Assembly (NCBI RefSeq): GCF_028389875.1
Contig: NC_084671.1
Coordinates: 28,329,083 to 28,393,082, forward strand
DNA from: Rhea pennata
Taxonomy: Eukaryota > Chordata > Aves > Rheiformes > Rheidae
Length of the DNA stretch: 64,000 nt
Direction: 5' to 3'
The stretch's first letter is position 1; each line of letters opens with the position of its first letter. Shown piece after piece: positions 45,943 through 64,000 of the stretch. The notes below the pieces were generated by a model, which did not search any database, was not told where the DNA came from, and saw only the letters and a list, made by a program, of their open reading frames with translations. A program made the position numbers and the translations under genes.

Positions 45943-46146
45943 AGGGCTGCCGCCAGAGCCCCGCCACGACAGCCTCGCCCCGGGCCCTTCCCGTTCTCTG
46001 CCTCCGGGCCCTGCTGCCCCCCACTCCCTCCTGCCTGCGCTCACACCAGCACTGCTGCGGGCAGCACAGGGGCTCCGGAGCCCGCAGCCACGATGCCGAG
46101 CCCAGCTGCCCCACGGCACCCCCAGAGCAGCTCCAGCCACGGGCAC
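45943..46146 (-). repeat. Inverted copy of the array segment 48,999-49,212
   Basis: The reverse complement of this stretch aligns with 48,999-49,212 (the end of the 57-bp minisatellite and the following spacer of array unit A) at high identity. There is one small gap around 45,970-45,985 where the array copy has about 10 extra bases. Equivalent segments recur in units B and C. Confidence 0.9.
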
Positions 46147-46224
46147 CACCCGCCTTCCCACCCCGAAAGCGAGCTTATGGCAGCATTCGGGCAGGAGAAG
46201 TAGACGTAGTTTCTCAGTTCTTTC

Positions 46225-46390: not shown

Positions 46391-46424
46391 ACATGGATAA
46401 GGAAACAAGGAGCAGATCCATGCT

Positions 46425-46577
46425 GCGGGACAGCAGCCCCACAGGGCCCAGAGCCCCAGAGTCAGCCAGGCAGAGATGCTGCCAGCCACAAAGCAAAGCC
46501 CCCTAAACGAAGCCAGGCCCCGGCCGGGCCCTGGCCGCCTCACGTGCCACACGGTGGGGAGCCTGGAGCTAAGTGAG
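46425..46577 (-). repeat. Relic of the RING-gene 5' flank (array unit 0)
   Basis: Aligns with 50,966-51,132, the first exon/upstream part of the RING gene, at roughly 80% by eye. No RING coding sequence lies next to it: the expected coding part is missing, so this is a deleted older copy. At about 46,578 it switches abruptly to sequence equivalent to 48,219 onward. Confidence 0.8.
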
Positions 46578-47154
46578 GGGGTCCCGACCAGAGGCTGCTG
46601 CAGGCCATGGAGGCCTGGGAGCGCACACAAGGCCCTGGCCTGTCCTTCGCTGCAGCCTCTTTCTCCTGTCCCTGCAGAGAGGGGGGACAAGTAACCCAGC
46701 AAGTGTAAGCTTTGCACAGCCATGCAGCCCGCGACTGCCAGTGAAGGCCATGGCTGGATCTGGTGTGGGTGCAGTGGGGTATCTGGACTCAGTGGTATGG
46801 GTGCCCGTGGCTGGATGTGCTGTGGGTGCAGTGGGGCATCTGGACTCAGTGGCATGGGTGCCCATTGCTGGATCTCCTGTGGGTGCAGTGGGGCATGTGG
46901 ACTCAGTGGTATGGGTGCCCATGGTTGGAGCTGCTCTGGGGGCAGTGGGGCATCTGGAATCAGTGGTACGGGTAACCGTGACTGGAGCTGCTGTGGGAGC
47001 AGTGGGGCATCTGGAATCACTGGTATCGGTGCCCATGGCTGGATGTGCTGTGGGTGCTGTGGGGTATCTGGACTCAGTGGTATGGGTGCCTGTGGCTGGA
47101 TCTGCTGTGGGTGCAGTGGGGCATCTGGACTCCGTGATATGGGTGCCTGTGGAT
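46578..47154. repeat. Array segment plus 57-bp minisatellite (unit 0)
   Basis: 46,578-46,745 matches 48,219-48,380 (the unique block preceding the minisatellite). About seven 57-bp units follow (form: GCTGGATCTGCTGTGGGTG, CAGTGGGGCATCTGGACTC, AGTGGTATGGGTGCCCATG). 57 bp is 19 codons, so frames stay open on both strands without being genes. Confidence 0.9.
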
Positions 47155-47800
47155 ATGGATCTGTGGATGTCAGGCTTGCCCACAAGGTCTCTAATCCTCT
47201 CCTCCTCAACCAAAGGAAAGTCTTCCTTTCTCCAGGCTTTCTGCCTTGCCTCCAGGCTCTGGGGTTCTTGCGGGCTGCCCTTAGCAGTGAAGTCTGAAGC
47301 CAAGGCAGCACTCAGTAGCTCTACCTTCTCCGGAGCCCTTGTCACAAGCGCCCCATTCAGTAGTGGGCCCGTATTTTCCCCACTCCTCCTCTTGCTCCTG
47401 ATGCATTTGAAGAAGCCCTTCCTGGTGTCCTGAACATCCCTTGCCAGACTCAATTCCAGCTGGGCCTTAGCCTTCCTCGCCGCATCCCTACATACTCGGA
47501 CAACATTCCTATAATTCTCCCGGGTAGCCTGTGCCCTCTTCCACATTCTGTGTACTTTCCTCTGCTCTCTGAGTTTGGCCAGGAGCTCCTTGCTCGTCCT
47601 GGCAGGTCTCCTGCCCCCTTTGCTGGTCCACGGTGACCACATTCAGGCCACCAGACTGTCCTGGTGAAGTGCTCAGTGTTTTCTGCCCAGGAGAACAGGA
47701 ACGCCTTCACTGTCTATCACTGTCTCTCCTCCACCCTTCACAACACCCCAAGAACCGGGACCATAGAAATGCATGTGCTCCTTTGAGGAGATGCGGCACT
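47155..47800 (-). mobile_element. CR1 fragment, 5' part only (unit 0)
   Basis: Equivalent to 52,915-53,560 of unit A: the CR1 ORF2 linker between endonuclease and reverse transcriptase (KVHRMWKRAQATRENYRN..., then RKGFFKCIRSKRRS). It is cut off sharply at 47,155, where the sequence continues into the 57-bp minisatellite; GATCTG is shared by both sides. The 3' two-thirds of the element, present in units A and B, are absent. Confidence 0.9.
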
Positions 47801-47811
47801 ATTTCCACCAT

Positions 47812-48090
47812 CACAGGGTCAGAGAATGGTTGAGGAAGGAAGGCACCTCTGGAGAGAGTGTAGTCCAAGGCCCCTGCTCAAGCAGACTCACCTAGAGCAC
47901 GTTGCCCCGGAACCTCTCTAGGTGGCTTTTGAAGAGCTCCAAGCACGGAGACTGCCCAAGCTCTGAGGGCAAGCAGAGCTCAGTTAGCCTCCCAGGAGGA
48001 CGCTTGTTGCTGATGGCCAGAGGGAACTGCCTGTGCTCCTGTTGGTGCCTGTTGCCTCTTGTCCTCTGCCTGGATGCGGTGAAAAGGGCC
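47812..48090 (-). mobile_element. Second CR1 3' fragment (different subfamily), unit 0/A
   Basis: Minus-strand translation reads FTASRQRTRGNRHQQEHRQF ... LELFKSHLERF, collinear with [20 protein letters not shown] ... [12 protein letters not shown] of the first CR1, so it is the C-terminal end of ORF2 plus 3' UTR of another, more diverged CR1. The 3' end is at the low coordinate. It is repeated in the next two units. Confidence 0.75.
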
Positions 48091-48381
48091 TGCGCCGTCC
48101 TCTTAACATCCTCCCTCAACAGTGCCAGCTCTCTCAGGCTGTCCTCAGAGGAGAGACGCTCAGGGGTCGAGCTGACATGGCCTCCAGGGCGCATGGGCAG
48201 GGTGTGGGGGAGGCCCCGGGTGAGGCTGCTGCAGGCCATGGAGGCCTGGGAGTGCACACAAGGCCCTGGCCTGTCCTTCGCTGCAGCCTCTTTCTCCTGT
48301 CCCTGCAGAGAGGGGGGACACATAACCCAGGAAGCGTGAGCCTTGCACAGCCATGCAGCCCGCGACTGCCAGTGAAGGCCG

Positions 48382-49039
48382 TGGCTGGATCTGGTGTGGG
48401 TGCAGTGGGGCATCTGGACTCAGTGGTATGGGTGCCAAGGCTATGGATCTGCTTTGGGGCATGTGGAGTCAGTGGTATGGATTCCCGTGGCGGAGGTGCT
48501 CTGGAGGGGTGCAGTGGGGCATGTGGACTCAGTGGTATGAGTGCCCATGCATGGAGCTGCTGTGGGTGCAGTGGGGCATCTGGACTCTGGTATGGGTTCC
48601 CGTGGCTGGAGGTGCTCTGGAGGGGTGCAGTGGGGCATCTGGACTCAGTGGTATGGGTGCCAAGGCTATGGATCTGCTTTGGGGCATCTGGAGTCAGTGG
48701 TATGGGTGCCTGTGGCTGGAGCAGCTCTGGGGGCAATGTGGCATCTGGACTCAGTGGTATGGGTGCCCATGCATGGAGGTGCTCTGGAGGGGTGCAGTGG
48801 GGCATGTGGACTCAGTGGTATGGGTGCCCATGCACGGAGCTGCTCTGGGGGGTGCAGTGGGGTATCTGGTCTCAGTGGTATGGGTGCCCATGCATGGAGC
48901 TGCTGTGGGTGCCATGGGGCATCTGGACTCTGGTATGGGTGCCCATGGCTGGAGCTGCTCTGGGGCGTGCCGTGGGGCATCTGGACTCTGTGGTATGGGT
49001 GCCCGTGGCTGGAGCTGCTCTGGGGGTGCCGTGGGGCAG
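48382..49039. repeat. 57-bp minisatellite of unit A (about 12 repeats)
   Basis: Units of 50-61 bp sharing CTGGACTCAGTGGTATGGGT. Several are variants with 'gctatggatctgctttgggg' or 'ctctggaggggtgcagtgg'. The order of variants partly repeats, indicating block duplication within the satellite. Confidence 0.92.
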
Positions 49040-49710
49040 CTGGGCTCGGCAGCGTGGCTGCGGGCTCCGGAGCCCCTGTGCTGCCCGCAGCAGTGCTGGT
49101 GTGAGCGCAGGCAGGAGGGAGCTGGGGGGCAGCAGGGCCCGGAGGCAGAGGATGGGAAGGGCGCGAGGGCGAGCAGGGATTTCTCCTCCCTGGCGGCGGG
49201 GCTCTGGCGGCGGGTGTGTGCCAGGGCTGTGTGCGTGGAGGGGAGGGGAGGCCTTGGGAGGCTGCTGCCCAGAGCCCTTGGGGCCGGGGCCTGGAGGTGG
49301 GGGGGGGGCCTTTGGAGGGCAAAGGTGCCCTTGCGGGAAGCCGCCCTGCATTTGCCCGGAGGTGGCAATACGTACACGGCGTTTGCTGTAGAGCAATACA
49401 CAGCAGATAAGGTGAACATTTGCCCTGGAGGTGGCGTGTCCCGAGGCGCTCGGTGTGTGGGGCACCGGGCCGAGAGCGAAGGGGCCCCCGCTACTTGGGA
49501 GAGGTGTTGGGTCTCCTGCGAGAAGTCTGGCTCGTGGGCCCTTGGAGCCCTGGCCGAGTTTGCAGCCCCGTGCGCAGGCGCCGGCAGCTCTCTGCCAGCT
49601 CCTGCCGGGGGCTTTTGCAAGGCTCGTGGCTGTTGCCCGCCAGCTGCGGGCCGGACAGAGTGAGCCCCGAGACGCGGGTGGTGGTTGCAGGCAGTGGCTG
49701 CTCCCTGCCC

Positions 49711-49716
49711 TTTATT
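49711..49716 (-). terminator. Poly(A) signal of RING gene copy A
   Basis: AATAAA on the minus strand 191 nt after the stop codon of the RING gene; identical in all three units. Confidence 0.65.
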
Positions 49717-49906
49717 AAGCGCCCGGCCCAGCACACGAGGAGGCCCCAGAGGCTCCCAGGCACCCAGGCTGCCTGCCTGGCTCTGCTGCGTCCTTCCCGG
49801 TCTTCCTTTGCCCAGCCAAGGCAACGGCAGCTCCCGCGGCCCTCGTCCGAACGCGCCCTGCTGCCGCCTGCCCCGAGGCCCGGGCCGCTGCGGGGAGCAG
49901 GGGACT

Positions 49907-50683
49907 CTAGAGGAACGCGCTGAAGTGGGGCAGCAACAGGATGTTGCACAAGAACACGAGGAATAAGGCCACCACTTCCATTTCGGCGCTGGGAGCCGGG
50001 CTGTCCCTGGGAGCCGGGCTCCTCTGCCTCCCGCGCCGAGCCGGGCGCTCGCAGACCGCCACGACCGTGAGTCCGTCAGGGAGCTCGTCCCGTCGCCCGG
50101 GGGACCTGCTGCGGCGGCAGCCTCGCGAAGGTGCCTCCCGTCTCCTGGTGCTTCCAGTGCTGCGGGACCTCTGCCGTAACGGCCCGCGGGCTCGGGGTCC
50201 TGCCCGCCGGTGGGCGTGAGCAGTCGCCCGAGCCCTGCTTGGCCGTCGCCGGCTCCTCGCTGGAGAGTCGTAGCCCCTGTAGCGCAGGAGGCTGCTGGCG
50301 CCGTCACGGCCGCTCCTCGGGGACCTGCTTCGCGCCGTCCTCGCTGCAGAGCGGGAGCGACGCCTCCGTCCTGGGCGGCCCGCAGAAGAGCGCCTGGGGC
50401 GGTCCGCCCGGGAGCCGTGGTGCGGGGGGCGCGCGCGGCCGGAGCGGAAAGGCCGCTGGCAGAGCGGGCACTCGGCTCTGCTGGCTGACAGCTGCTGGAC
50501 GCAGCCGAGGCAGAGCCTGTGCGAGCAGACGCTGACGTAGGCGGCGGCGTGCAGCGGGCGCAGGCAGACGGAGCAGCGCAGCTCCTCCGAGGCGTCCGGC
50601 GGCACGTGCTGCGGCAGCCAGCCGGCGCTGGCGCCGGGGGAGAAGCTGCCGTGCTCGCGGCAGTCCTCTTGCGCAGACCTCAT
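49907..50683 (-). CDS. RING-finger protein with RS-rich region and hydrophobic tail, copy A, 258 aa
   Basis: Probable membrane-anchored E3 ubiquitin ligase; function inferred from domain only. C3HC4 RING at residues 37-75: C37-x2-C40-x12-C53-x-H55-x2-C58-x2-C61-x10-C72-x2-C75. Spacing and the motif AECPLCQRPF resemble the Topors RING. An Arg/Ser-rich stretch follows (about 80-215, e.g. RRRRSRSAARTARSRSPRSG), as in Topors, but the protein is far shorter. The last ~24 residues are hydrophobic (MEVVALFLVFLCNILLLP...), a possible tail anchor; no signal peptide. The start is the first ATG after a good acceptor (ctgccttgcag, exon 2 from 50686). An upstream noncoding exon ends at 50879 with donor GTGAGC, leaving a 192-nt intron. 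CRE upstream, AATAAA downstream. I do not recognise a named orthologue. Confidence 0.75.
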   Translation of the reverse strand: MRSAQEDCREHGSFSPGASAGWLPQHVPPDASEELRCSVCLRPLHAAAYVSVCSHRLCLGCVQQLSASRAECPLCQRPFRSGRARPPHHGSRADRPRRSSAGRPGRRRRSRSAARTARSRSPRSGRDGASSLLRYRGYDSPARSRRRPSRARATAHAHRRAGPRARGPLRQRSRSTGSTRRREAPSRGCRRSRSPGRRDELPDGLTVVAVCERPARRGRQRSPAPRDSPAPSAEMEVVALFLVFLCNILLLPHFSAFL

Positions 50684-50686
50684 GTC

Positions 50687-50878
50687 CTGCAAGGCAGAGA
50701 GACCCGGAGCTTGTGTGAGCTGTGCTTGCGGCCGAGGCAGGCGAAGGCAGAAAAGCCGGGTGAGCGGCGAGCCAAAGGGCTGCGCAGGCTTCTGGGGGGC
50801 TGCAAGGGAGCAGCACAAGCGCCGAGAGGTCCCCCCGAAAGACCCCCTTGCTGCCTGCCTTGCAGCAGCACAGCTCAC
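50687..50878 (-). other. Putative 5' intron of RING gene copy A (192 nt)
   Basis: Donor CGCAG|gtgagc at 50878 and acceptor ttgcag at 50688-50687 on the minus strand. The intron is a multiple of three and open, so an unspliced reading from a GTG at 51169 runs through to the RING frame. A spliced 5' UTR with the ATG at 50683 is the simpler model. Confidence 0.55.
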
Positions 50879-51182
50879 CTGCGCACGTCGGTCCGTGCTC
50901 AGCGCGGAACACCCCGCGCACCTGCAGGGCTGCCCAACACGCCGGCAGCCTCTGGGCGGCCCAGGCGCGGGACAGCAGCCCCGCGGGGTGCGCAGCGCCT
51001 CGGTCAGCCAGGCAGAGATGCTGCTGGCCGCCGAGCAAAGCCCCACACGCAAAGCGGAGACCCTGCCGGGCCCTGGACGCCTCGCGTGCCACCCGGCGGG
51101 GAGCCTGGGGCTAAGTGAGGGGGTGCCGACCGGGCGGCTGCCTCCCAGCAGTGAGGTCGCGGGAGTCACAGGAACTCTCTGG

Positions 51183-51190
51183 TGACGTCA
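51183..51190. promoter_or_regulatory. Palindromic CRE (TGACGTCA) upstream of RING copy A
   Basis: Perfect 8-bp CRE, about 300 bp upstream of the putative first-exon donor, within GC-rich sequence lacking a TATA box. Retained in all three units. CREB/CREM/ATF-type binding is the usual reading; not proof of promoter activity. Confidence 0.5.
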
Positions 51191-51357
51191 CAGGGCTGCC
51201 GGGGCCGCGCCCAGGAGACCCCCCAGGCTGCGGGAGCAGCCCCGGGCTCGCAGAACACGTTGGAGAGCCGGCTTCAGCCGTGGGGCTTTGCCGGGGCTCT
51301 TTGTGCCTGGGGCTGTTGGTGCCGGGACTGGGCCAGGCTTTGCCTTGGCTTCCCTGG

Positions 51358-53560
51358 CAGTCAGAGAGCCAGAGAGTCAGAGAACCAGAGAATCAGGAAG
51401 GTTGGGGGGGAGACCTCCGGAGATCATCTAGTCCAACCTCCCTGCTCCAGCACGGTCACGTACAGCATGTTAGACAGGGTTGCATGCAGGCGGGCTTTGA
51501 GTATCTCCAGAGAAGGAGACTCCACAACCTCTCTGGGCAACCTGCTCCAGTGCTCCGTCCCTCTCACAGGGAAGACATTCCTCCTCACGTTCAGGTGGAA
51601 CTTCCTGTGGTGCAGTTTTGGCCCATTGCCTCTTGTCCTGTTGCATGGGGCAACTGAAAAGCGTTTGTCCCCATCCCCTTGACCCCCTCCCTTCACATAC
51701 TTAGACACATTGATAAGATCCCCCCTCAGTCTTCCCTTCCCCAGGCTGAAGAGGCCCTCCTCTCGCAGCCGTTCCTCAGAGGGCTGATGCTCCAGCCCTC
51801 TGATCATCTTCATAGCCCTACACTGGACTCTCTCCAGCAGCTCCATGTCTCTCTTGTCCTGGGGAGCCCAGAACTGGATGTAGTACTTGAGATGAGGTCT
51901 CAGCAGGGGCTGAGTAGAGGGACAGGATCACCTCCCTCAACCTGCTGGCCACACTCTTCCAAATGCAGCCCAGGAGACCATTGGCCTTCCTGGCCACAGG
52001 GCCACATTGCTGCCTCAGGGTCAACTTGTCATCCACCAGCACTCCCAGGTCCTCCTCTGCACAGCTGCTTTCTAGCAGCTCAGCCCCCAGCCTGTACTGG
52101 TGCCTGGGGTTATTTCTCCCTAGGTGCAGGACTCTGCACTTGCCCTTGTGGAACCTCAGGAGGTTCCTCTCTGCCCAGCTCTCCAGCCTGTCCATGTCTC
52201 TCTGAACGGCAGCACAGCCCTCCTGTGCCTCAGCCACTCCTCCCAGCTTGGTAGCATCAGCAAACTTGCTGAGGAGGCACTCTGTCCCTTTGTCCAGGTC
52301 GTTGATGAAGAAGTTGAACAGGATGGGAGCCAGTTCTGAGCCCTGGGGGACTCCACTAGCCACAGGCCTCCAACTAGACTCCACGCCAATGATGACAACC
52401 CTCTGAGGTCTGCCTTGCAGCTAGTTCTCAACCCACCTCACTGTCCACTCATCTATCCCACACTTGCTGAGCTTCTCTAGGAGGATGTTATGGGAGACAG
52501 CGTCAAAAGCCTTGCTGAAGTCAAGGTACCCAATGCCCACTGCTCTCCCCTCCCCTACCCAGGCAGTTGTTCCATCCTAGAAGGCGATCAGCTTGGTTAA
52601 GCAGGAGTTCCCCTTGGTGAAGCCATGCTGTCTACTCCCGATCACCTTCTTTCCCTCCATATGCTTGGAGATGACATTGAGAATGAGCTGTTCCATCCCT
52701 TTTCCAGGGATGGAGGTGAGGCTGAGCAGCCTAGAGTTGCCTGGGTCCTCCTTCTTGCCCTTTTTGAAGACTGGAGTGACACTGGCTTTCTCCCAGTCCT
52801 CAGGCACCTCTCCCGTTTTCCCAGGACCTTTCAAAGATGATGGAGAGCAGCCTGGCAACAACATCCGCCAGCTCCCTCAGTACCCATGGGTGCATCCCAT
52901 CTGGGCCCACCGATCTGTGGATGTCAGGCTTGCCCACAAGGTCTCTAATCCTCTCCTCCTCAACCAAAGGGAAGTCTTCCTTTCTCCAGGCTTTCTGCCT
53001 TGCCTCCAGGCTCTGGGGTTCTTGCAGGCTGCCCTTAGCAGCGAAGCCTGAAGCCAAGGCAGCACTCAGTAACTCTGCCTTCTCCGGAGCCCTTGTCACC
53101 AGGGCCCCTGCCCCATTCAGTAGTGGGCCCACATTTTCCGCACTCCTCCTCTTGCTCCTGATGCATTTGAAGAAGCCCTTCCTGGTGTCCTGAACATCCC
53201 TTGCCAGACTCAATTCCAGCTGGGCCTTAGCCTTCCTCGCCGCATCCCTACATACTCGGACAACATTCCTATAATTCTCCCGGGTAGCCTGTGCCCTCTT
53301 CCACATTCTGTGTACTTTCCTCTTCTCTCTGAGTTTGGCCAGGAGCTCCTTGCTCGTCCTGGCAGGTCTCCTGCCCCCTTTGCTGGTCCACGGTGACCAC
53401 ATTCAGGCCACCAGACTGTGCTGGTGAAGTGCTCAGTGTTTTCTGCCCAGGAGAACAGGAACGCCTTCACTGTCTATCACTGTCTCTCCTCCACCCTTCA
53501 CAACACCCCAAGAACCGGGACCATAGAAATGCACGTGCTCCTTTGAGGAGATGGGGCACT
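51358..53560 (-). mobile_element. CR1 LINE, 5'-truncated, inactive (unit A)
   Basis: Minus-sense ORF2 remnants in order: linker (KRKVHRMWKRAQATREN), RT N-terminus (WEKASVTPVFKKGKKEDPGN), RT core ([20 protein letters not shown], then FADATKLGG) and C-terminal end ([18 protein letters not shown]), followed by the 3' UTR ending near 51,358. The catalytic FADD box reads FADA and the frame is broken at least twice. The endonuclease domain is missing. The 3' end shows degenerate GAGTCAGAGAACCAGAGAAT-type repeats instead of the usual ATTCTATG octamers. Confidence 0.92.
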
Positions 53561-53571
53561 ATTTCCACCGT

Positions 53572-53850
53572 CACAGGGTCAGAGAATGGTTGAGGAAGGA
53601 AGGCACCTCTGGAGAGAGTGTAGTCCAAGGCCCCTGCTCAAGCAGACTCACCTAGAGCACGTTGCCCCAGAACCTCTCTAGGTGGCTTTTGAAGAGCTCC
53701 AAGCACGGAGACTGCCCAAGCTCCGAGGGCAAGCAGAGCTCAGTTAGCCTCCCAGGAGGACGCTTGTTGCTGATGGCCAGAGGGAACTGCCTGTGCTCCT
53801 GTTGGTGCCTGTTACCTCTTGTCCTCTGCCTGGACGCGGTGAAAAGGGCC
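53572..53850 (-). mobile_element. Second CR1 3' fragment, unit A
   Basis: Same as 47,812-48,090: the C-terminal ORF2 end and 3' UTR of a diverged CR1, in the same orientation and directly 5' of the larger CR1. Confidence 0.75.
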
Positions 53851-54141
53851 TGCGCCGTCCTCTTAACATCCTCCCTCAACAGTGCCAGCTCTCTCAGGCT
53901 GTCCTCAGAGGAGAGACGCTCAGGGGTCGAGCTGACATGGCCTCCAGGGCGCATGGGCAGGGTGTGGGGGAGGCCCCGGGTGAGGCTGCTGCAGGCCATG
54001 GAGGCCTGGGAGTGCACACAAGGCCCTGGCCTGTCCTTCGCTGCAGCCTCTTTCTCCTGTCCCTGCAGAGAGGGGGGACACATAACCCAGGAAGCGTGAG
54101 CCTTGCACAGCCATGCAGCCCGCGACTGCCAGTGAAGGCCG

Positions 54142-54575
54142 TGGCTGGATCTGGTGTGGGTGCAGTGGGGCATCTGGACTCAGTGGTATGGGTGCCAAGG
54201 CTATGGATCTGCTTTGGGGCATCTGGAGTCAGTGGTATGGGTGCCTGTGGCTGGAGTAGCTCTGGGGGCAATGTGGCATCTGGACTCAGTGGTATGGGTT
54301 CCCGTGGCTGGAGGTGCTCTGGAGGGGTGCAGTGGGGCATGTGGACTCAGTGGTATGGGTGCCCATGCACGGAGCTGCTCTGGGGGGTGCAGTGGGGCAT
54401 CTGGACTCAGTGGTATGGGTGCCCATGCATGGAGCTGCTGTGGGTGCCATGGGGCATCTGGACTCTGGTATGGGTGCCCATGGCTGGAGCTGCTCTGGGG
54501 CGTGCTGTGGGGCATCTGGACTCTGTGGTATGGGTGCCCGTGGCTGGAGCTGCTCTGGGGGTGCCGTGGGGCAGC
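54142..54575. repeat. 57-bp minisatellite of unit B (about 8 repeats)
   Basis: Same variant units as in unit A but lacking a block of about four. Differs from unit C by a few substitutions (for example 'catgcacgg' here against 'ctatggctgg' in C). Confidence 0.92.
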
Positions 54576-55248
54576 TGGGCTCGGCAGCGTGGCTGCGGGC
54601 TCCGGAGCCCCTGTGCTGCCCGCAGCAGTGCTGGTGTGAGCACAGGCAGGAGGGAGCTGGGGGGCAGCAGGGCCCGGAGGCAGAGGATGGGAAGGGCGCG
54701 AGGGCGAGCAGGGATTTCTCCTCCCTGGTGGCAGGGCTCTGGCGGCGGGTGTGTGCCAGGGCTGTGTGCGTGGAGGGGAGGGGAGGCCTTGGGAGGCTGC
54801 TGCCCAGAGCCCTTGGGGCCGGGGCCTGGAGGTTGGGGGGGGGGGGCCTTTGGAGGGCAAAGGTGCCCTTGCGGGAAGCCGCCCTGCATTTGCCCGGAGG
54901 TGGCAATACGTACACGGCGTTTGCTGTAGAGCAATACACAGCAGATAAGGTGAACATTTGCCCTGGAAGTGGCGTGTCCCGAGGCGCTCGGTGTGTGGGG
55001 CACCGGGCCGAGAGCGAAGGGGCCCCCGCTGCTTGGGAGAGGTGTTGGGTCTCCTGCGAGAAGTCTGGCTCGTGGGCCCTTGGAGCCCTGGCCGAGTTTG
55101 CAGCCCCGTGCGCAGGCGCCGGCAGCTCTCTGCCAGCTCCTGCTGGGGGCTTTTGCAAGGCTCGTGGCTGTTGCCTGCCAGCCGCGGGCCGGACAGAGTG
55201 AGCCCCGAGACGCGGGTGGTGGTTGCAGGCAGCGGCTGCTCCCTGCCC

Positions 55249-55254
55249 TTTATT
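55249..55254 (-). terminator. Poly(A) signal of RING gene copy B
   Basis: Minus-strand AATAAA, 191 nt after the stop codon, the same position as in copies A and C. Confidence 0.65.
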
Positions 55255-55444
55255 AAGCGCCCGGCCCAGCACACGAGGAGGCCCCAGAGGCTCCCAGGCA
55301 CCCAGGCTGCCTGCCTGGCTCTGCTGCGTCCTTCCCGGTCTTCCTTTGCCCAGCCAAGGCAACAGCAGCTCCCGCGGCCCTCGTCCGAACGCGCCCTGCT
55401 GCTGCCTGCCCCGAGGCCCGGGCCGCTGCGGGGAGCAGGGGACT

Positions 55445-56221
55445 CTAGAGGAACGCGCTGAAGTGGGGCAGCAACAGGATGTTGCACAAGAACACGAGGA
55501 ATAAGGCCACCACTTCCATTTCGGCGCTGGGAGCCGGGCTGTCCCTGGGAGCCGGGCTCCTCTGCCTCCCGCGCCGAGCCGGGCGCTCGCAGACCGCCAC
55601 GACCGTGAGTCCGTCGGGGAGCTCGTCCCGTCGCCCGGGGGACCTGCTGCGGCGGCAGCCTCGCGAAGGTGCCTCCCGTCTCCTGGTGCTTCCAGTGCTG
55701 CGGGACCTCTGCCGTAACGGCCCGCGGGCTCGGGGTCCTGCCCGCCGGTGGGCGTGAGCAGTCGCCCGAGCCCTGCTTGGCCATCGCCGGCTCCTCGCTG
55801 GAGAGTCGTAGCCCCTGTAGCGCAGGAGGCTGCTGGCGCCGTCACGGCCGCTCCTCGGGGACCTGCTTCGCACCGTCCTCGCTGCAGAGCGGGAGCGACA
55901 CCTCCGTCCTGGGCGGCCCGCAGAAGAGCGCCTGGGGCGGTCCGTCCGGGAGCCGTGGTGCGGGGGGCGCGCGCGGCCGGAGCGGAAAGGCCGCTGGCAG
56001 AGCGGGCACTCGGCTCTGCTGGCTGACAGCTGCTGGACGCAGCCGAGGCAGAGCCTGTGCGAGCAGACGCTGACGTAGGCGGCGGCGTGCAGCGGGCGCA
56101 GGCAGACGGAGCAGCGCAGCTCCTCCGAGGCGTCCGGCGGCACGTGCTGCGGCAGCCAGCCGGCGCTGGCGCCGGTGGAGAAGCTGCCGTGCTCGCGGCA
56201 GTCCTCTTGCGCAGACCTCAT
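55445..56221 (-). CDS. RING-finger protein, copy B, 258 aa
   Basis: Second intact copy, same length and start as copy A, with all eight RING ligands kept (C37, C40, C53, H55, C58, C61, C72, C75) and the same hydrophobic C-terminus. Differences are single residues: Thr for Pro at 16 (FSTGAS), Thr for Ala in SRTDRP, a Cys within the Arg/Ser stretch (RRCRSRS), Val for Ala (ARTVRS), and Trp for Arg (RSRRWPS). No frameshift or stop. The 192-nt upstream intron (56225-56416) and CRE are kept. Function as for copy A: inferred E3 ligase. Confidence 0.74.
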   Translation of the reverse strand: MRSAQEDCREHGSFSTGASAGWLPQHVPPDASEELRCSVCLRPLHAAAYVSVCSHRLCLGCVQQLSASRAECPLCQRPFRSGRARPPHHGSRTDRPRRSSAGRPGRRCRSRSAARTVRSRSPRSGRDGASSLLRYRGYDSPARSRRWPSRARATAHAHRRAGPRARGPLRQRSRSTGSTRRREAPSRGCRRSRSPGRRDELPDGLTVVAVCERPARRGRQRSPAPRDSPAPSAEMEVVALFLVFLCNILLLPHFSAFL

Positions 56222-56720
56222 GTCCTGCAAGGCAGAGAGACCCGGAGCTTGTGTGAGCTGTGCTTGCGGCCGAGGCAGGCGAAGGCAGAAAAGCCGGGCG
56301 AGCGGCGAGCCAAAGGGCTGCGCAGGCTTCTGGGGGGCTGCAAGGGAGCAGCACAAGCGCCGAGAGGCCCCCGCGAAAGACCCCCTTGCTGCCTGCCTTG
56401 CAGCAGCACAGCTCACCTGCGCACGTCGGTCCGTGCTCAGCGCGGAACACCCCGCGCACCTGCAGGGCTGCCCAACACGCCGGCAGCCTCTGGGCGGCCC
56501 AGGCGCGGGACAGCAGCCCCGCGGGGTGCGCAGCGCCTCGGTCAGCCAGGCAGAGATGCTGCTGGCCGCCGAGCAAAGCCCCACACGCAAAGCGGAGACC
56601 CTGCCGGGCCCTGGACGCCTCGCGTGCCACCCGGCGGGGAGCCTGGGGCTAAGTGAGGGGGTGCCGACCGGGCGGCTGCCTCCCAGCAGTGAGGTCGCGG
56701 GAGTCACAGGAACTCTCTGG

Positions 56721-56728
56721 TGACGTCA
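56721..56728. promoter_or_regulatory. Palindromic CRE upstream of RING copy B
   Basis: TGACGTCA, unchanged from unit A, at the same distance from the gene. Confidence 0.5.
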
Positions 56729-56895
56729 CAGGGCTGCCGGGGCCGCGCCCAGGAGACCCCCCAGGCTGCGGGAGCAGCCCCGGGCTCGCAGAACACGTTG
56801 GAGAGCCGGCTTCAGCCGTGGGGCTTTGCCGGGGCTCTTTGTGCCTGGGGCTGTTGGTGCCGGGACTGGGCCAGGCTTTGCCTTGGCTTCCCTGG

Positions 56896-59098
56896 CAGTC
56901 AGAGAGCCAGAGAGTCAGAGAACCAGAGAATCAGGAAGGTTGGGGGGGAGACCTCCGGAGATCATCTAGTCCAACCTCCCTGCTCAAGCACGGTCACCTA
57001 CAGCATGTTAGACAGGGTTGCATGCAGGCGGGCTTTGAGTATCTCCAGAGAAGGAGACTCCACAACCTCTCTGGGCAACCTGCTCCAGTGCTCCGTCCCT
57101 CTCACAGGGAAGACATTCCTCCTCACGTTCAGGTGGAACTTCCTGTGGTGCAGTTTTGGCCCATTGCCTCTTGTCCTGTTGCATGGGGCAACTGAAAAGC
57201 GTTTGTCCCCATCCCCTTGACCCCCTCCCTTCACATACTTAGACACATTGATAAGATCCCCCCTCAGTCTTCCCTTCCCCAGGCTGAAGAGGCCCTCCTC
57301 TCGCAGCCGTTCCTCAGAGGGCTGATGCTCCAGCCCTCTGATCATCTTCATAGCCCTACACTGGACTCTCTCCAGCAGCTCCATGTCTCTCTTGTCCTGG
57401 GGAGCCCAGAACTGGATGTAGTACTTGAGATGAGGTCTCAGCAGGGGCTGAGTAGAGGGACAGGATCACCTCCCTCAACCTGCTGGCCACACTCTTCCAA
57501 ATGCAGCCCAGGAGACCATTGGCCTTCCTGGCCACAGGGCCACATTGCTGCCTCAGGGTCAACTTGTCATCCACCAGCACTCCCAGGTCCTCCTCTGCAC
57601 AGCTGCTTTCTAGCAGCTCAGCCCCCAGCCTGTACTGGTGCCTGGGGTTATTTCTCCCTAGGTGCAGGACTCTGCACTTGCCCTTGTGGAACCTCAGGAG
57701 GTTCCTCTCTGCCCAGCTCTCCAGCCTGTCCATGTCTCTCTGAACGGCAGCACAGCCCTCCTGTGCCTCAGCCACTCCTCCCAGCTTGGTAGCATCAGCA
57801 AACTTGCTGAGGAGGCACTCTGTCCCTTTGTCCAGGTCGTTGATGAAGAAGTTGAACAGGATGGGAGCCAGTTCTGAGCCCTGGGGGACTCCACTAGCCA
57901 CAGGCCTCCAACTAGACTCCACGCCAATGATGACAACCCTCTGAGGTCTGCCTTGCAGCTAGTTCTCAACCCACCTCACTGTCCACTCATCTATCCCACA
58001 CTTGCTGAGCTTCTCTAGGAGGATGTTATGGGAGACAGCGTCAAAAGCCTTGCTGAAGTCAAGGTACCCAATGCCCACTGCTCTCCCCTCCCCTACCCAG
58101 GCAGTTGTTCCATCCTAGAAGGCGATCAGCTTGGTTAAGCAGGAGTTCCCCTTGGTGAAGCCATGCTGTCTACTCCCGATCACCTTCTTTCCCTCCATAT
58201 GCTTGGAGATGACATTGAGAATGAGCTGTTCCATCCCTTTTCCAGGGATGGAGGTGAGGCTGAGCAGCCTAGAGTTGCCTGGGTCCTCCTTCTTGCCCTT
58301 TTTGAAGACTGGAGTGACACTGGCTTTCTCCCAGTCCTCAGGCACCTCTCCCGTTTTCCCAGGACCTTTCAAAGATGATGGAGAGCAGCCTGGCAACAAC
58401 ATCCGCCAGCTCCCTCAGTACCCATGGGTGCATCCCATCTGGGCCCACCGATCTGTGGATGTCAGGCTTGCCCACAAGGTCTCTAATCCTCTCCTCCTCA
58501 ACCAAAGGGAAGTCTTCCTTTCTCCAGGCTTTCTGCCTTGCCTCCAGGCTCTGGGGTTCTTGCAGGCTGCCCTTAGCAGCGAAGCCTGAAGCCAAGGCAG
58601 CACTCAGTAACTCTGCCTTCTCCGGAGCCCTTGTCACCAGGGCCCCTGCCCCATTCAGTAGTGGGCCCACATTTTCCGCACTCCTCCTCTTGCTCCTGAT
58701 GCATTTGAAGAAGCCCTTCCTGGTGTCCTGAACATCCCTTGCCAGACTCAATTCCAGCTGGGCCTTAGCCTTCCTCGCCGCATCCCTACATACTCGGACA
58801 ACATTCCTATAATTCTCCCGGGTAGCCTGTGCCCTCTTCCACATTCTGTGTACTTTCCTCTTCTCTCTGAGTTTGGCCAGGAGCTCCTTGCTCGTCCTGG
58901 CAGGTCTCCTGCCCCCTTTGCTGGTCCACGGTGACCACATTCAGGCCACCAGACTGTCCTGGTGAAGTGCTCAGTGTTTTCTGCCCAGGAGAACAGGAAC
59001 GCCTTCACTGTCTATCACTGTCTCTCCTCCACCCTTCACAACACCCCAAGAACCGGGACCATAGAAATGCACGTGCTCCTTTGAGGAGATGGGGCACT
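56896..59098 (-). mobile_element. CR1 LINE, same insertion duplicated (unit B)
   Basis: Same truncation points, same FADA for FADD change and same frame breaks as in unit A, so it was copied with the unit rather than inserted independently. Confidence 0.92.
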
Positions 59099-59109
59099 AT
59101 TTCCACCGT

Positions 59110-59388
59110 CACAGGGTCAGAGAATGGTTGAGGAAGGAAGGCACCTCTGGAGAGAGTGTAGTCCAAGGCCCCTGCTCAAGCAGACTCACCTAGAGCACGT
59201 TGCCCCAGAACCTCTCTAGGTGGCTTTTGAAGAGCTCCAAGCACGGAGACTGCCCAAGCTCCGAGGGCAAGCAGAGCTCAGTTAGCCTCCCAGGAGGACG
59301 CTTGTTGCTGATGGCCAGAGGGAACTGCCTGTGCTCCTGTTGGTGCCTGTTACCTCTTGTCCTCTGCCTGGACGCGGTGAAAAGGGCC
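59110..59388 (-). mobile_element. Second CR1 3' fragment, unit B
   Basis: Third occurrence of the fragment at 47,812 and 53,572, at the fixed array spacing. Confidence 0.75.
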
Positions 59389-59679
59389 TGCGCCGTCCTC
59401 TTAACATCCTCCCTCAACAGTGCCAGCTCTCTCAGGCTGTCCTCAGAGGAGAGACGCTCAGGGGTCGAGCTGACATGGCCTCCAGGGCGCATGGGCAGGG
59501 TGTGGGGGAGGCCCCGGGTGAGGCTGCTGCAGGCCATGGAGGCCTGGGAGTGCACACAAGGCCCTGGCCTGTCCTTCGCTGCAGCCTCTTTCTCCTGTCC
59601 CTGCAGAGAGGGGGGACACATAACCCAGGAAGCGTGAGCCTTGCACAGCCATGCAGCCCGCGACTGCCAGTGAAGGCCG

Positions 59680-60113
59680 TGGCTGGATCTGGTGTGGGTG
59701 CAGTGGGGCATCTGGACTCAGTGGTATGGGTGCCAAGGCTATGGATCTGCTTTGGGGCATCTGGAGTCAGTGGTATGGGTGCCTGTGGCTGGAGTAGCTC
59801 TGGGGGCAATGTGGCATCTGGACTCAGTGGTATGGGTTCCCGTGGCTGGAGGTGCTCTGGAGGGGTGCAGTGGGGCATGTGGACTCAGTGGTATGGGTGC
59901 CTATGGCTGGAGCTGCTCTGGGGGGTGCAGTGGGGCATCTGGACTCAGTGGTATGGGTGCCCATGCATGGAGCTGCTGTGGGTGCCATGGGGCATCTGGA
60001 CTCTGGTATGGGTGCCCATGGCTGGAGCTGCTCTGGGGCGTGCTGTGGGGCATCTGGACTCTGTGGTATGGGTGCCCGTGGCTGGAGCTGCTCTGGGGGT
60101 GCCGTGGGGCAGC
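59680..60113. repeat. 57-bp minisatellite of unit C (about 8 repeats)
   Basis: Same length and unit order as unit B. Confidence 0.92.
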
Positions 60114-60786
60114 TGGGCTCGGCAGCGTGGCTGCGGGCTCCGGAGCCCCTGTGCTGCCCGCAGCAGTGCTGGTGTGAGCACAGGCAGGAGGGAGCTGGGG
60201 GGCAGCAGGGCCCGGAGGCAGAGGATGGGAAGGGCGCGAGGGCGAGCAGGGATTTCTCCTCCCTGGTGGCAGGGCTCTGGCGGCGGGTGTGTGCCAGGGC
60301 TGTGTGCGTGGAGGGGAGGGGAGGCCTTGGGAGGCTGCTGCCCAGAGCCCTTGGGGCCGGGGCCTGGAGGTTGGGGGGGGGGGGCCTTTGGAGGGCAAAG
60401 GTGCCCTTGCGGGAAGCCGCCCTGCATTTGCCCGGAGGTGGCAATACGTACACGGCGTTTGCTGTAGAGCAATACACAGCAGATAAGGTGAACATTTGCC
60501 CTGGAGGTGGCGTGTCCCGAGGCGCTCGGTGTGTGGGGCACCGGGCCGAGAGCGAAGGGGCCCCCGCTGCTTGGGAGAGGTGTTGGGTCTCCTGCGAGAA
60601 GTCTGGCTCGTGGGCCCTTGGAGCCCTGGCCGAGTTTGCAGCCCCGTGCGCAGGCGCCGGCAGCTCTCTGCCAGCTCCTGCCGGGGGCTTTTGCAAGGCT
60701 CGTGGCTGTTGCCTGCCAGCCGCGGGCCGGACAGAGTGAGCCCCGAGACGCGGGTGGTGGTTGCAGGCAGCGGCTGCTCCCTGCCC

Positions 60787-60792
60787 TTTATT
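60787..60792 (-). terminator. Poly(A) signal of RING gene copy C
   Basis: Minus-strand AATAAA, 191 nt after the stop codon, as in the other copies. Confidence 0.65.
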
Positions 60793-60982
60793 AAGCGCCC
60801 GGCCCAGCACACGAGGAGGCCCCAGAGGCTCCCAGGCACCCAGGCTGCCTGCCTGGCTCTGCTGCGTCCTTCCCGGTCTTCCTTTGCCCAGCCAAGGCAA
60901 CAGCAGCTCCCGCGGCCCTCGTCCGAACGCGCCCTGCTGCTGCCTGCCCCGAGGCCCGGGCCGCTGCGGGGAGCAGGGGACT

Positions 60983-61759
60983 CTAGAGGAACGCGCTGAA
61001 GTGGGGCAGCAACAGGATGTTGCACAAGAACACGAGGAATAAGGCCACCACTTCCATTTCGGCGCTGGGAGCCGGGCTGTCCCTGGGAGCCGGGCTCCTC
61101 TGCCTCCCGCGCCGAGCCGGGCGCTCGCAGACCGCCACGACCGTGAGTCCGTCGGGGAGCTCGTCCCGTCGCCCGGGGGACCTGCTGCGGCGGCAGCCTC
61201 GCGAAGGTGCCTCCCGTCTCCTGGTGCTTCCAGTGCTGCGGGACCTCTGCCGTAACGGCCCGCGGGCTCGGGGTCCTGCCCGCCGGTGGGCGTGAGCAGT
61301 CGCCCGAGCCCTGCTTGGCCATCGCCGGCTCCTCGCTGGAGAGTCGTAGCCCCTGTAGCGCAGGAGGCTGACGGCGCCGTCACGGCCGCTCCTCGGGGAC
61401 CTGCTTCGCGCCGTCCTCGCTGCAGAGCGGGAGCGACGCCTCCGTCCTGGGCGGCCCGCAGAAGAGCGCCTGGGGCGGTCCGCCCGGGAGCCATGGTGCG
61501 GGGGGCGCGCGCGGCCGGAGCGGAAAGGCCGCTGGCAGAGCGGGCACTCGGCTCTGCTGGCTGACAGCTGCTGGACGCAGCCGAGGCAGAGCCTGTGCGA
61601 GCAGACGCTGACGTAGGCGGCGGCGTGCAGCGGGCGCAGGCAGACGGAGCAGCGCAGCTCCTCCGAGGCGTCCGGCGGCACGTGCTGCGGCAGCCAGCCG
61701 GCGCTGGCGCCGGGGGAGAAGCTGCCGTGCTCGCGGCAGTCCTCTTGCGCAGACCTCAT
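60983..61759 (-). CDS. RING-finger protein, copy C, 258 aa
   Basis: Third intact copy. All RING ligands and the hydrophobic tail are kept, and Pro16 is as in copy A. It shares RSRRWPS with copy B but RRRRSRS and ARTARS with copy A, so the copies form a mosaic. One private change is Val for Ala in DGAVSLL. Putative 5' intron 61763-61954, again 192 nt. Function as for copy A. Confidence 0.74.
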   Translation of the reverse strand: MRSAQEDCREHGSFSPGASAGWLPQHVPPDASEELRCSVCLRPLHAAAYVSVCSHRLCLGCVQQLSASRAECPLCQRPFRSGRARPPHHGSRADRPRRSSAGRPGRRRRSRSAARTARSRSPRSGRDGAVSLLRYRGYDSPARSRRWPSRARATAHAHRRAGPRARGPLRQRSRSTGSTRRREAPSRGCRRSRSPGRRDELPDGLTVVAVCERPARRGRQRSPAPRDSPAPSAEMEVVALFLVFLCNILLLPHFSAFL

Positions 61760-62258
61760 GTCCTGCAAGGCAGAGAGACCCGGAGCTTGTGTGAGCTGTG
61801 CTCGCGGCCGAGGCAGGCGAAGGCAGAAAAGCCGGGCGAGCGGCGAGCCAAAGGGCTGCGCAGGCTTCTGGGGGGCTGCAAGGGAGCAGCACAAGCGCCG
61901 AGAGGCCCCCGCGAAAGACCCCCTTGCTGCCTGCCTTGCAGCAGCACAGCTCACCTGCGCACGTCGGTCCGTGCTCAGCGCGGAACACCCCGCGCACCTG
62001 CAGGGCTGCCCAACACGCCGGCAGCCTCTGGGCGGCCCAGGCGCGGGACAGCAGCCCCGCGGGGTGCGCAGCGCCTCGGTCAGCCAGGCAGAGATGCTGC
62101 TGGCCGCCGAGCAAAGCCCCACACGCAAAGCGGAGACCCTGCCGGGCCCTGGACGCCTCGCGTGCCACCCGGCGGGGAGCCTGGGGCTAAGTGAGGGGGT
62201 GCCGACCGGGCGGCTGCCTCCCAGCAGTGAGGTCGCGGGAGTCACAGGAACTCTCTGG

Positions 62259-62266
62259 TGACGTCA
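62259..62266. promoter_or_regulatory. Palindromic CRE upstream of RING copy C
   Basis: TGACGTCA, unchanged in sequence and position relative to the gene. Confidence 0.5.
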
Positions 62267-62433
62267 CAGGGCTGCCGGGGCCGCGCCCAGGAGACCCCCC
62301 AGGCTGCGGGAGCAGCCCCGGGCTCGCAGAACACGTTGGAGAGCCGGCTTCAGCCGTGGGGCTTTGCCGGGGCTCTTTGTGCCTGGGGCTGTTGGTGCCG
62401 GGACTGGGCCAGGCTTTGCCTTGGCTTCCCTGG

Positions 62434-64000
62434 CAGTCAGAGAGCCAGAGAGTCAGAGAACCAGAGAATCAGGAAGGTTGGGGGGGAGACCTCCGGAGAT
62501 CATCTAGTCCAACCTCCCTGCTCCAGCACGGTCACGTACAGCATGTTAGACAGGGTTGCATGCAGGCGGGCTTTGAGTATCTCCAGAGAAGGAGACTCCA
62601 CAACCTCTCTGGGCAACCTGCTCCAGTGCTCCGTCCCTCTCACAGGGAAGACATTCCTCCTCACGTTCAGGTGGAACTTCCTGTGGTGCAGTTTTGGCCC
62701 ATTGCCTCTTGTCCTGTTGCATGGGGCAACTGAAAAGCGTTTGTCCCCATCCCCTTGACCCCCTCCCTTCACATACTTAGACACATTGATAAGATCCCCC
62801 CTCAGTCTTCCCTTCCCCAGGCTGAAGAGGCCCTCCTCTCGCAGCCGTTCCTCAGAGGGCTGATGCTCCAGCCCTCTGATCATCTTCATAGCCCTACACT
62901 GGACTCTCTCCAGCAGCTCCATGTCTCTCTTGTCCTGGGGAGCCCAGAACTGGATGTAGTACTTGAGATGAGGTCTCAGCAGGGGCTGAGTAGAGGGACA
63001 GGATCACCTCCCTCAACCTGCTGGCCACACTCTTCCAAATGCAGCCCAGGAGACCATTGGCCTTCCTGGCCACAGGGCCACATTGCTGCCTCAGGGTCAA
63101 CTTGTCATCCACCAGCACTCCCAGGTCCTCCTCTGCACAGCTGCTTTCTAGCAGCTCAGCCCCCAGCCTGTACTGGTGCCTGGGGTTATTTCTCCCTAGG
63201 TGCAGGACTCTGCACTTGCCCTTGTGGAACCTCAGGAGGTTCCTCTCTGCCCAGCTCTCCAGCCTGTCCATGTCTCTCTGAACGGCAGCACAGCCCTCCT
63301 GTGCCTCAGCCACTCCTCCCAGCTTGGTAGCATCAGCAAACTTGCTGAGGAGGCACTCTGTCCCTTTGTCCAGGTCGTTGATGAAGAAGTTGAACAGGAT
63401 GGGAGCCAGTTCTGAGCCCTGGGGGACTCCACTAGCCACAGGCCTCCAACTAGACTCCACGCCAATGATGACAACCCTCTGAGGTCTGCCTTGCAGCTAG
63501 TTCTCAACCCACCTCACTGTCCACTCATCTATCCCACACTTGCTGAGCTTCTCTAGGAGGATGTTATGGGAGACAGCGTCAAAAGCCTTGCTGAAGTCAA
63601 GGTACCCAATGCCCACTGCTCTCCCCTCCCCTACCCAGGCAGTTGTTCCATCCTAGAAGGCGATCAGCTTGGTTAAGCAGGAGTTCCCCTTGGTGAAGCC
63701 ATGCTGTCTACTCCCGATCACCTTCTTTCCCTCCATATGCTTGGAGATGACATTGAGAATGAGCTGTTCCATCCCTTTTCCAGGGATGGAGGTGAGGCTG
63801 AGCAGCCTAGAGTTGCCTGGGTCCTCCTTCTTGCCCTTTTTGAAGACTGGAGTGACACTGGCTTTCTCCCAGTCCTCAGGCACCTCTCCCGTTTTCCCAG
63901 GACCTTTCAAAGATGATGGAGAGCAGCCTGGCAACAACATCCGCCAGCTCCCTCAGTACCCATGGGTGCATCCCATCTGGGCCCACCGATCTGTGGATGT
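62434..64000 (-). mobile_element. CR1 LINE, same insertion (unit C), cut by window edge
   Basis: Collinear copy of the unit A/B CR1 with the same FADA box. Only the 3' UTR, RT core and RT N-terminus are inside the window. Confidence 0.9.

Follow-up and report, generated by a model that had tools for sequence, protein, structure and literature searches.

The 64,000-nucleotide stretch of the Rhea pennata genome analyzed here (the window) spans positions 28,329,083 to 28,393,082 of contig NC_084671.1 (C9 below) in a 1.27-Gb assembly of 180 contigs, and its right-hand part holds a head-to-tail array of a small RING-finger gene. A preliminary description of the window had given this array a period of 5,538 bp, which is indeed the dominant offset when the window is compared with itself: three units, all on the minus strand, lie at window positions 47169..52922, 52923..58460 and 58461..63998. 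Units 2 and 3 are 99.69% identical (17 of 5,538 sites differ), in agreement with the few substitutions reported between copies, and the 48616..52922 stretch of unit 1 is 99.2% identical to unit 2 over 4,311 bp by blastn. Unit 1, the leftmost, carries extra length in its left part, where a variable number tandem repeat (VNTR) is longer. The array had been placed from position 48382 and left open-ended. Blastn to unit 2 moves the start of unit homology to about 47169, and a search of the window's own assembly supplies an end: the array runs past the right edge of the window, as described, with six further gene copies, and stops some 31 kb farther along, at 28,423,887 on the contig, for nine gene copies in 47.6 kb. 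Along the array, the copies are spaced 5538, 5538, 5649, 5695, 4193, 5867, 4188 and 5528 bp apart, and the two short intervals (copies 5 to 6 and 7 to 8) lack about 1.3 kb of a long interspersed nuclear element (LINE), which we take to be a CR1, that is part of the array unit.

Each of the three units within the window contains the complete gene model previously attributed to it: a cAMP response element (CRE, TGACGTCA), a splice donor (CAG/GTGAGC), a 192-nt intron, a 258-codon frame and an AATAAA signal. For copies 1, 2 and 3, respectively, the 312-nt segment from CRE to donor occupies 50879..51190, 56417..56728 and 61955..62266; the 5′ untranslated region (UTR) intron (GTGAGC..AG), 50687..50878, 56225..56416 and 61763..61954; the coding exon, 49907..50683, 55445..56221 and 60983..61759; and AATAAA, 49711..49716, 55249..55254 and 60787..60792, all on the minus strand. 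The claim that the frame and all zinc ligands survive in every copy holds for the whole array: all nine copies have the open 258-codon frame, the CRE, the donor, an acceptor beside the start codon and all eight ligands. The intron is 192 nt long in eight copies and 191 nt in one, and AATAAA sits 190 nt after the stop codon in all nine. The coding sequence is confined to a single exon. The CRE-bearing segment upstream is CpG-rich and contains no ATG between CRE and donor in any of the nine copies; in our model it would comprise the promoter and a transcribed, noncoding first exon.

The predicted protein consists of a RING, an arginine/serine (RS)-rich region and a hydrophobic tail. Its RING core (residues 37–75, 55997..56113 on the minus strand in copy 2) has the eight ligands of a C3HC4 finger in order and matches the Pfam family zf-C3HC4_3 above its cut-off (E 1.8e-6, 28.1 bits, cut-off 27); several other RING models scored under theirs. 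Residues 81–235 (copy 2) contain 20 RS or SR dipeptides, with 45 arginines and 23 serines among 155 residues, and we class this lysine-free region as RS-rich. The C-terminus reaches a hydropathy of 2.29 over 19 residues; among the window's 176 other GC-rich frames, none attains 2.2 and five attain 1.6 in their last 30 residues. From the single sequence of copy 1, AlphaFold predicts residues 233–257 (55451..55525, minus strand, in copy 2) to be helical, with block pLDDT values of 82, 95 and 77, and the remainder of the protein with low confidence. This model makes the C-terminus look like a tail anchor, and membrane anchoring is possible. When the last 64 codons plus the 3′ UTR were used as a DNA query, all nine matches in the assembly, at the sensitivity of that search, fell within this array; among the arrays described below, only the window's is predicted to have a hydrophobic, tail-anchor-like C-terminus.

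The preliminary description put this E3-like gene forward as a candidate for an undescribed system. That the gene is multicopy, amplified and a RING E3-like one stands; it is not, however, of unknown descent, for its origin lies in TOPORS. A 1,004-aa frame on contig C61 (16.12 Mb), which we take to be TOPORS from its length, its likeness to the human protein and its location on a Z-like contig, matches residues 13–146 of the window protein, leader included, by BLASTP (E 1e-16), and the two RINGs align without gaps. Similarity to full-length TOPORS thus extends outside the RING, and on that basis we place the window protein in the TOPORS family. C61 fits the Z chromosome because the assembly's only spindlin matches (three) and HIT-family matches (four) lie there; both genes are presumably Z-linked, with W copies, in birds. 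A table row in PMC1876622 lists TOPORS on the chicken Z. The conserved stretch that follows the RING (HTVRAEDDFKEY in this genome's TOPORS) is represented in the window protein by scattered residues only, so we file the latter as TOPORS-derived rather than as full TOPORS. The two have in common the N-terminal leader, the RING and an RS-rich remainder, whereas the window protein is far shorter (258 versus 1,004 aa), is multicopy, has an added hydrophobic tail and altered RING residues, and lacks not only the post-RING stretch but also the middle region and the region of the SUMO-interacting motif (SIM). VVAV at residues 207–210, after DELPDG, is weakly SIM-like, but motifs this short often arise by chance, and BLASTP yielded no alignment of this region with the stretch DNCVIVGYVKP of the genome's TOPORS. 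The best sequence matches of the window RING in the PDB are RING2/RNF2 and other RINGs, although the RING comparison score for RING2/RNF2 was 74, versus 124 for TOPORS. As judged from sequence, these comparisons show the window gene to be a shortened and diverged TOPORS offshoot whose predicted product keeps the N-terminus and C3HC4 RING, continues into an RS-rich, lysine-free region and has lost the rest. Passages in PMC12002637, PMC11358161 and PMC8860612 describe TOPORS as a ubiquitin/SUMO E3, and the first of these describes human TOPORS as a SUMO-targeted ubiquitin ligase whose activity was lowered by a SIM2 mutation.

A family search of the assembly returned at least 110 matches, TOPORS itself included (147 of 150 candidates were scored). 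C9 holds 36 genes in three array regions (9, 20 and 7 copies) plus one short match, and the matched stretch is free of stop codons in all 36. The two sister arrays comprise 20 copies of a 373-aa form at 29.437–29.512 Mb and 7 copies of a 367-aa form at 29.144–29.199 Mb, with the intron and single coding exon inspected in loci L018 and L019. They have the CRE-to-donor segment, the N-terminus and the RING register in common with the window gene, but the members read retain CPIC, the tryptophan and the post-RING motif HTVRADDDFQEY, and they finish in an RS tail without the hydrophobic C-terminus. On C18, a nine-copy TOPORS-like array with a period of 3,086 bp (L022, 3.126–3.151 Mb) has two stops in each matched stretch. 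C1 contains two 525-aa TOPORS-like frames and one short match, and one additional match lies on C61. The two C1 frames (L014 at 135.7 Mb and L015 at 135.1 Mb) are oppositely oriented and separated by about 650 kb, and their RING segments are identical.

A longer form accounts for about 59 matches, counted by eye and with varying frame lengths, on C21, C138, C139, C145, C146, C147 and C161. With a 548-aa member as query we obtained 80 matches, one of them the C61 TOPORS; 55 cover the query from its first or second residue to residue 548, and 32 of them are stop-free by eye, in a count of stops that excludes frameshifts. These loci (L023–L048) are mostly tens of kilobases apart; in the members read, the RING and the middle region are retained, as is a SIM-like DSCVLVGYWKP. 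C145 is a mirror image of C147, and the two contigs may represent haplotypes, in which case true copy numbers may be lower. Among 16 full-length copies from the 26 loci, an undercount given that the start pattern missed 5 of the 26, the ratio of nonsynonymous to synonymous substitution rates (dN/dS) is 0.53. Because chicken TOPORS is listed on Z, we considered W-linkage of the contigs carrying this form and found it unsupported: no W copy of spindlin or of the HIT-family gene turned up. Among viral and GTDB contigs, no relatives were confirmed. These further TOPORS-derived sets suggest that the gene family is evolving fast. Bird annotations contain genes named ‘Topors-like’, and family members may therefore be annotated singly. 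One example, which shares the family name, is the chicken ‘E3 ubiquitin-protein ligase Topors-like’ in a table row of PMC7563548. No paper listed in our searches of the open-licence PMC literature describes TOPORS arrays, or an expansion of the gene, in birds.

The CRE-to-donor segment behaves differently from the rest of the gene. Across arrays, its 312 nt in the window gene match those of each sister form at 98.4% identity (a 1.6% difference), compared with 77% in the upstream flank and 83–84% in the intron; coding identity is 58–64% over codons 1–36 and 80% in the RING, with the first 80 codons differing by 20–42%. The upstream edge of the conserved block is sharp, about 45 bp ahead of the CRE, and the intron-side edge fades. 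A DNA search with the segment returned 40 hits: each of the 36 C9 genes has one, at 97–100% identity, and C18 has four, at 72%. Ultra-constraint of exon 1 is disfavored, since among the copies of the window array the segment is as variable as the coding sequence (6 of 314 versus 17 of 777 columns), and for that reason gene conversion, which we infer to have acted across the three C9 regions, accounts better for how little the segment differs between arrays. A shared promoter joined to diverging coding exons, in arrays 0.7–1.1 Mb apart, provides a natural setting in which to weigh gene conversion against selection.

A sign of purifying selection comes from the sister arrays. Over 366 codons, the 373-aa and 367-aa forms differ with dN 0.134 and dS 0.230, a ratio of 0.58 (p 0.004 versus equality, uncorrected for CpG), which shows the predicted sister proteins, each taken whole, to be under constraint. 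In neutral simulations, a 190-codon frame stayed stop-free in 20–26% of runs at 0.1 substitutions per site and in 4–6% at 0.2, and it stayed free of both stops and frameshifts in <1% of runs at the indel rate assumed.

With moderate confidence, we interpret the array as a genuinely protein-coding mini-TOPORS gene, repeated nine times in tandem, with a ligase-like product and homogenized promoters; its coding status is supported by the sister-array ratio of 0.58 and by the match to TOPORS. Several results weigh against this interpretation. Relative to TOPORS, the window RING has CPIC changed to CSVC and a tryptophan changed to leucine, and its predicted structure has low confidence. The branch of the window protein is long, at 1.05 changes per column, and the branch that joins the protein to the other C9 forms has support of 90/90 and is not starred in our tree. 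Between the sister arrays, the RING shows five nonsynonymous and no synonymous changes and the first 100 codons have a dN/dS of 1.08, so the constraint on those proteins shows up outside the RING. Comparing the window form with the 373-aa one gives a dN/dS of 0.87 across 95 codons (dS ~0.46); by parts, the ratio is 0.53 over residues 1–36, about 2 in the RING (21.5 nonsynonymous, 3.5 synonymous), where sites are few, and 0.51 past the RING, where the alignment is unreliable. Finally, the nine copies of the window array differ among themselves by 11 nonsynonymous and 6 synonymous changes, versus 69% nonsynonymous expected, which is a neutral-like pattern.

These changes in the RING, the near-neutral ratio on the window lineage and the pattern among the nine copies would also be seen in a dying or neutral macrosatellite that had recently caught an open-frame TOPORS-like copy, with the frame open simply because the copies are young and homogenized. 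The coding sequences of the nine copies diverge by a mean of just 0.7% and a maximum of 1.4%, all nine of the C18 family matches carry two stops, and the dead CR1 side of the unit is more alike than the gene: among the three window copies, 2 of 1,538 sites differ on the CR1 side versus 15 of 1,480 in the gene (p 0.001). Units 2 and 3 likewise differ at 7 of 777 coding sites versus 10 of 4,761 elsewhere (p 0.006), and CpG sites account for four of the seven. The preliminary description had taken an intact frame beside a dead CR1 as a mark of selection and had proposed dN/dS across copies as a check. The CR1 comparison runs the other way and the check comes out neutral; because of the latter, open frames in near-identical copies count for little, and we dropped the argument from the intact frames of the three window copies, which are too alike. 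We nevertheless find a macrosatellite rather unlikely, as the frame stayed open from the split with the sister arrays, at the dS given above, until amplification, every C9 copy is stop-free in its matched stretch, and the sister forms have a dN/dS of 0.58 when the whole frame is counted. The same RING substitutions, the loss of the post-RING HTVRAxDDFxEY motif and the many copies could instead describe a dominant-negative or decoy of TOPORS that keeps the N-terminus and a RING shell and is not an active ligase. In other RINGs, the residues at the changed positions touch the E2, and the altered RING suggests changed or weaker E2 use. We doubt the decoy explanation all the same: the eight zinc ligands are intact in every copy, and RING2, named as an E3 in its PDB listing, has a leucine at the position of the tryptophan-to-leucine change. 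That the assembler merely repeated a single unit is hard to credit; that units 2 and 3 are almost identical would fit, but the copies have private differences, the spacings are unequal, part of the CR1 is missing from two intervals, and genes of this kind also occur in two further array regions whose spacings are different.

If the array is indeed a set of functional mini-TOPORS genes, one such gene would have been amplified through unequal crossing-over, and gene conversion would keep the promoter and first exon alike in the three C9 regions while the coding exons diverge. Expression would be driven from the CRE promoter, with many promoters acting in parallel. The product would be a small nuclear or membrane-bound RING protein resembling a ubiquitin (or SUMO) ligase, with putative activity, and it might share or compete for the E2 enzymes or substrates of TOPORS. 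Several arrays and amplicons of TOPORS relatives in one bird genome constitute an unusual and testable amplification of a SUMO/ubiquitin regulator, and amplifications of this sort have elsewhere been linked to germline conflict or dosage. A more far-reaching proposal, which we consider improbable, combines the single conversion-homogenized CRE promoter, the diverging coding exons and the exchange of the TOPORS body for a membrane tail: TOPORS would have seeded a conflict-driven multigene system in this lineage, within which the window array would encode a neofunctionalized RING protein, RS-rich and tail-anchored (nuclear-envelope or endoplasmic reticulum), with an effect on SUMO/ubiquitin control in germ cells. 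In a study of duck gonads (PMC9643717), expression of topors, which may be TOPORS itself or a relative, was reported to be higher in females than in males of mule ducks.

The remaining features of the locus lie within or just left of the array. The CR1-type LINE piece of unit 2 (56922..58940, minus strand, limits approximate) is dead, as had been described, with its reading shifting between frames and interrupted by stops; part of it matches RVT_1 (E 2e-9), and 200-aa pieces from upstream in this stretch matched no Pfam family. By offset from unit 2, the corresponding minus-strand pieces would be 51384..53402 for unit 1 and, for unit 3, a stretch that starts near 62460 and runs to the end of the window. 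The VNTR, with a 57–60 bp repeat, lies at 54166..54582 in unit 2, at about 48455..49047 in unit 1 and at 59704..60120 in unit 3. Left of the array, 46418..46601 (minus strand, 184 bp, 81% identity) is an older remnant that covers part of the promoter/exon-1 segment; the match stops short of both the CRE and the donor and adjoins VNTR sequence. An inverted 176-bp copy of VNTR-adjoining sequence, 96% identical, lies at 45974..46147, just left of the array. Between the array and CFAP410, whose exons we recognized by peptide motifs at about 42.66–43.68 kb of the window on the minus strand, there is a GC-rich minisatellite of about 21 repeats of 41 bp (44544..45406).

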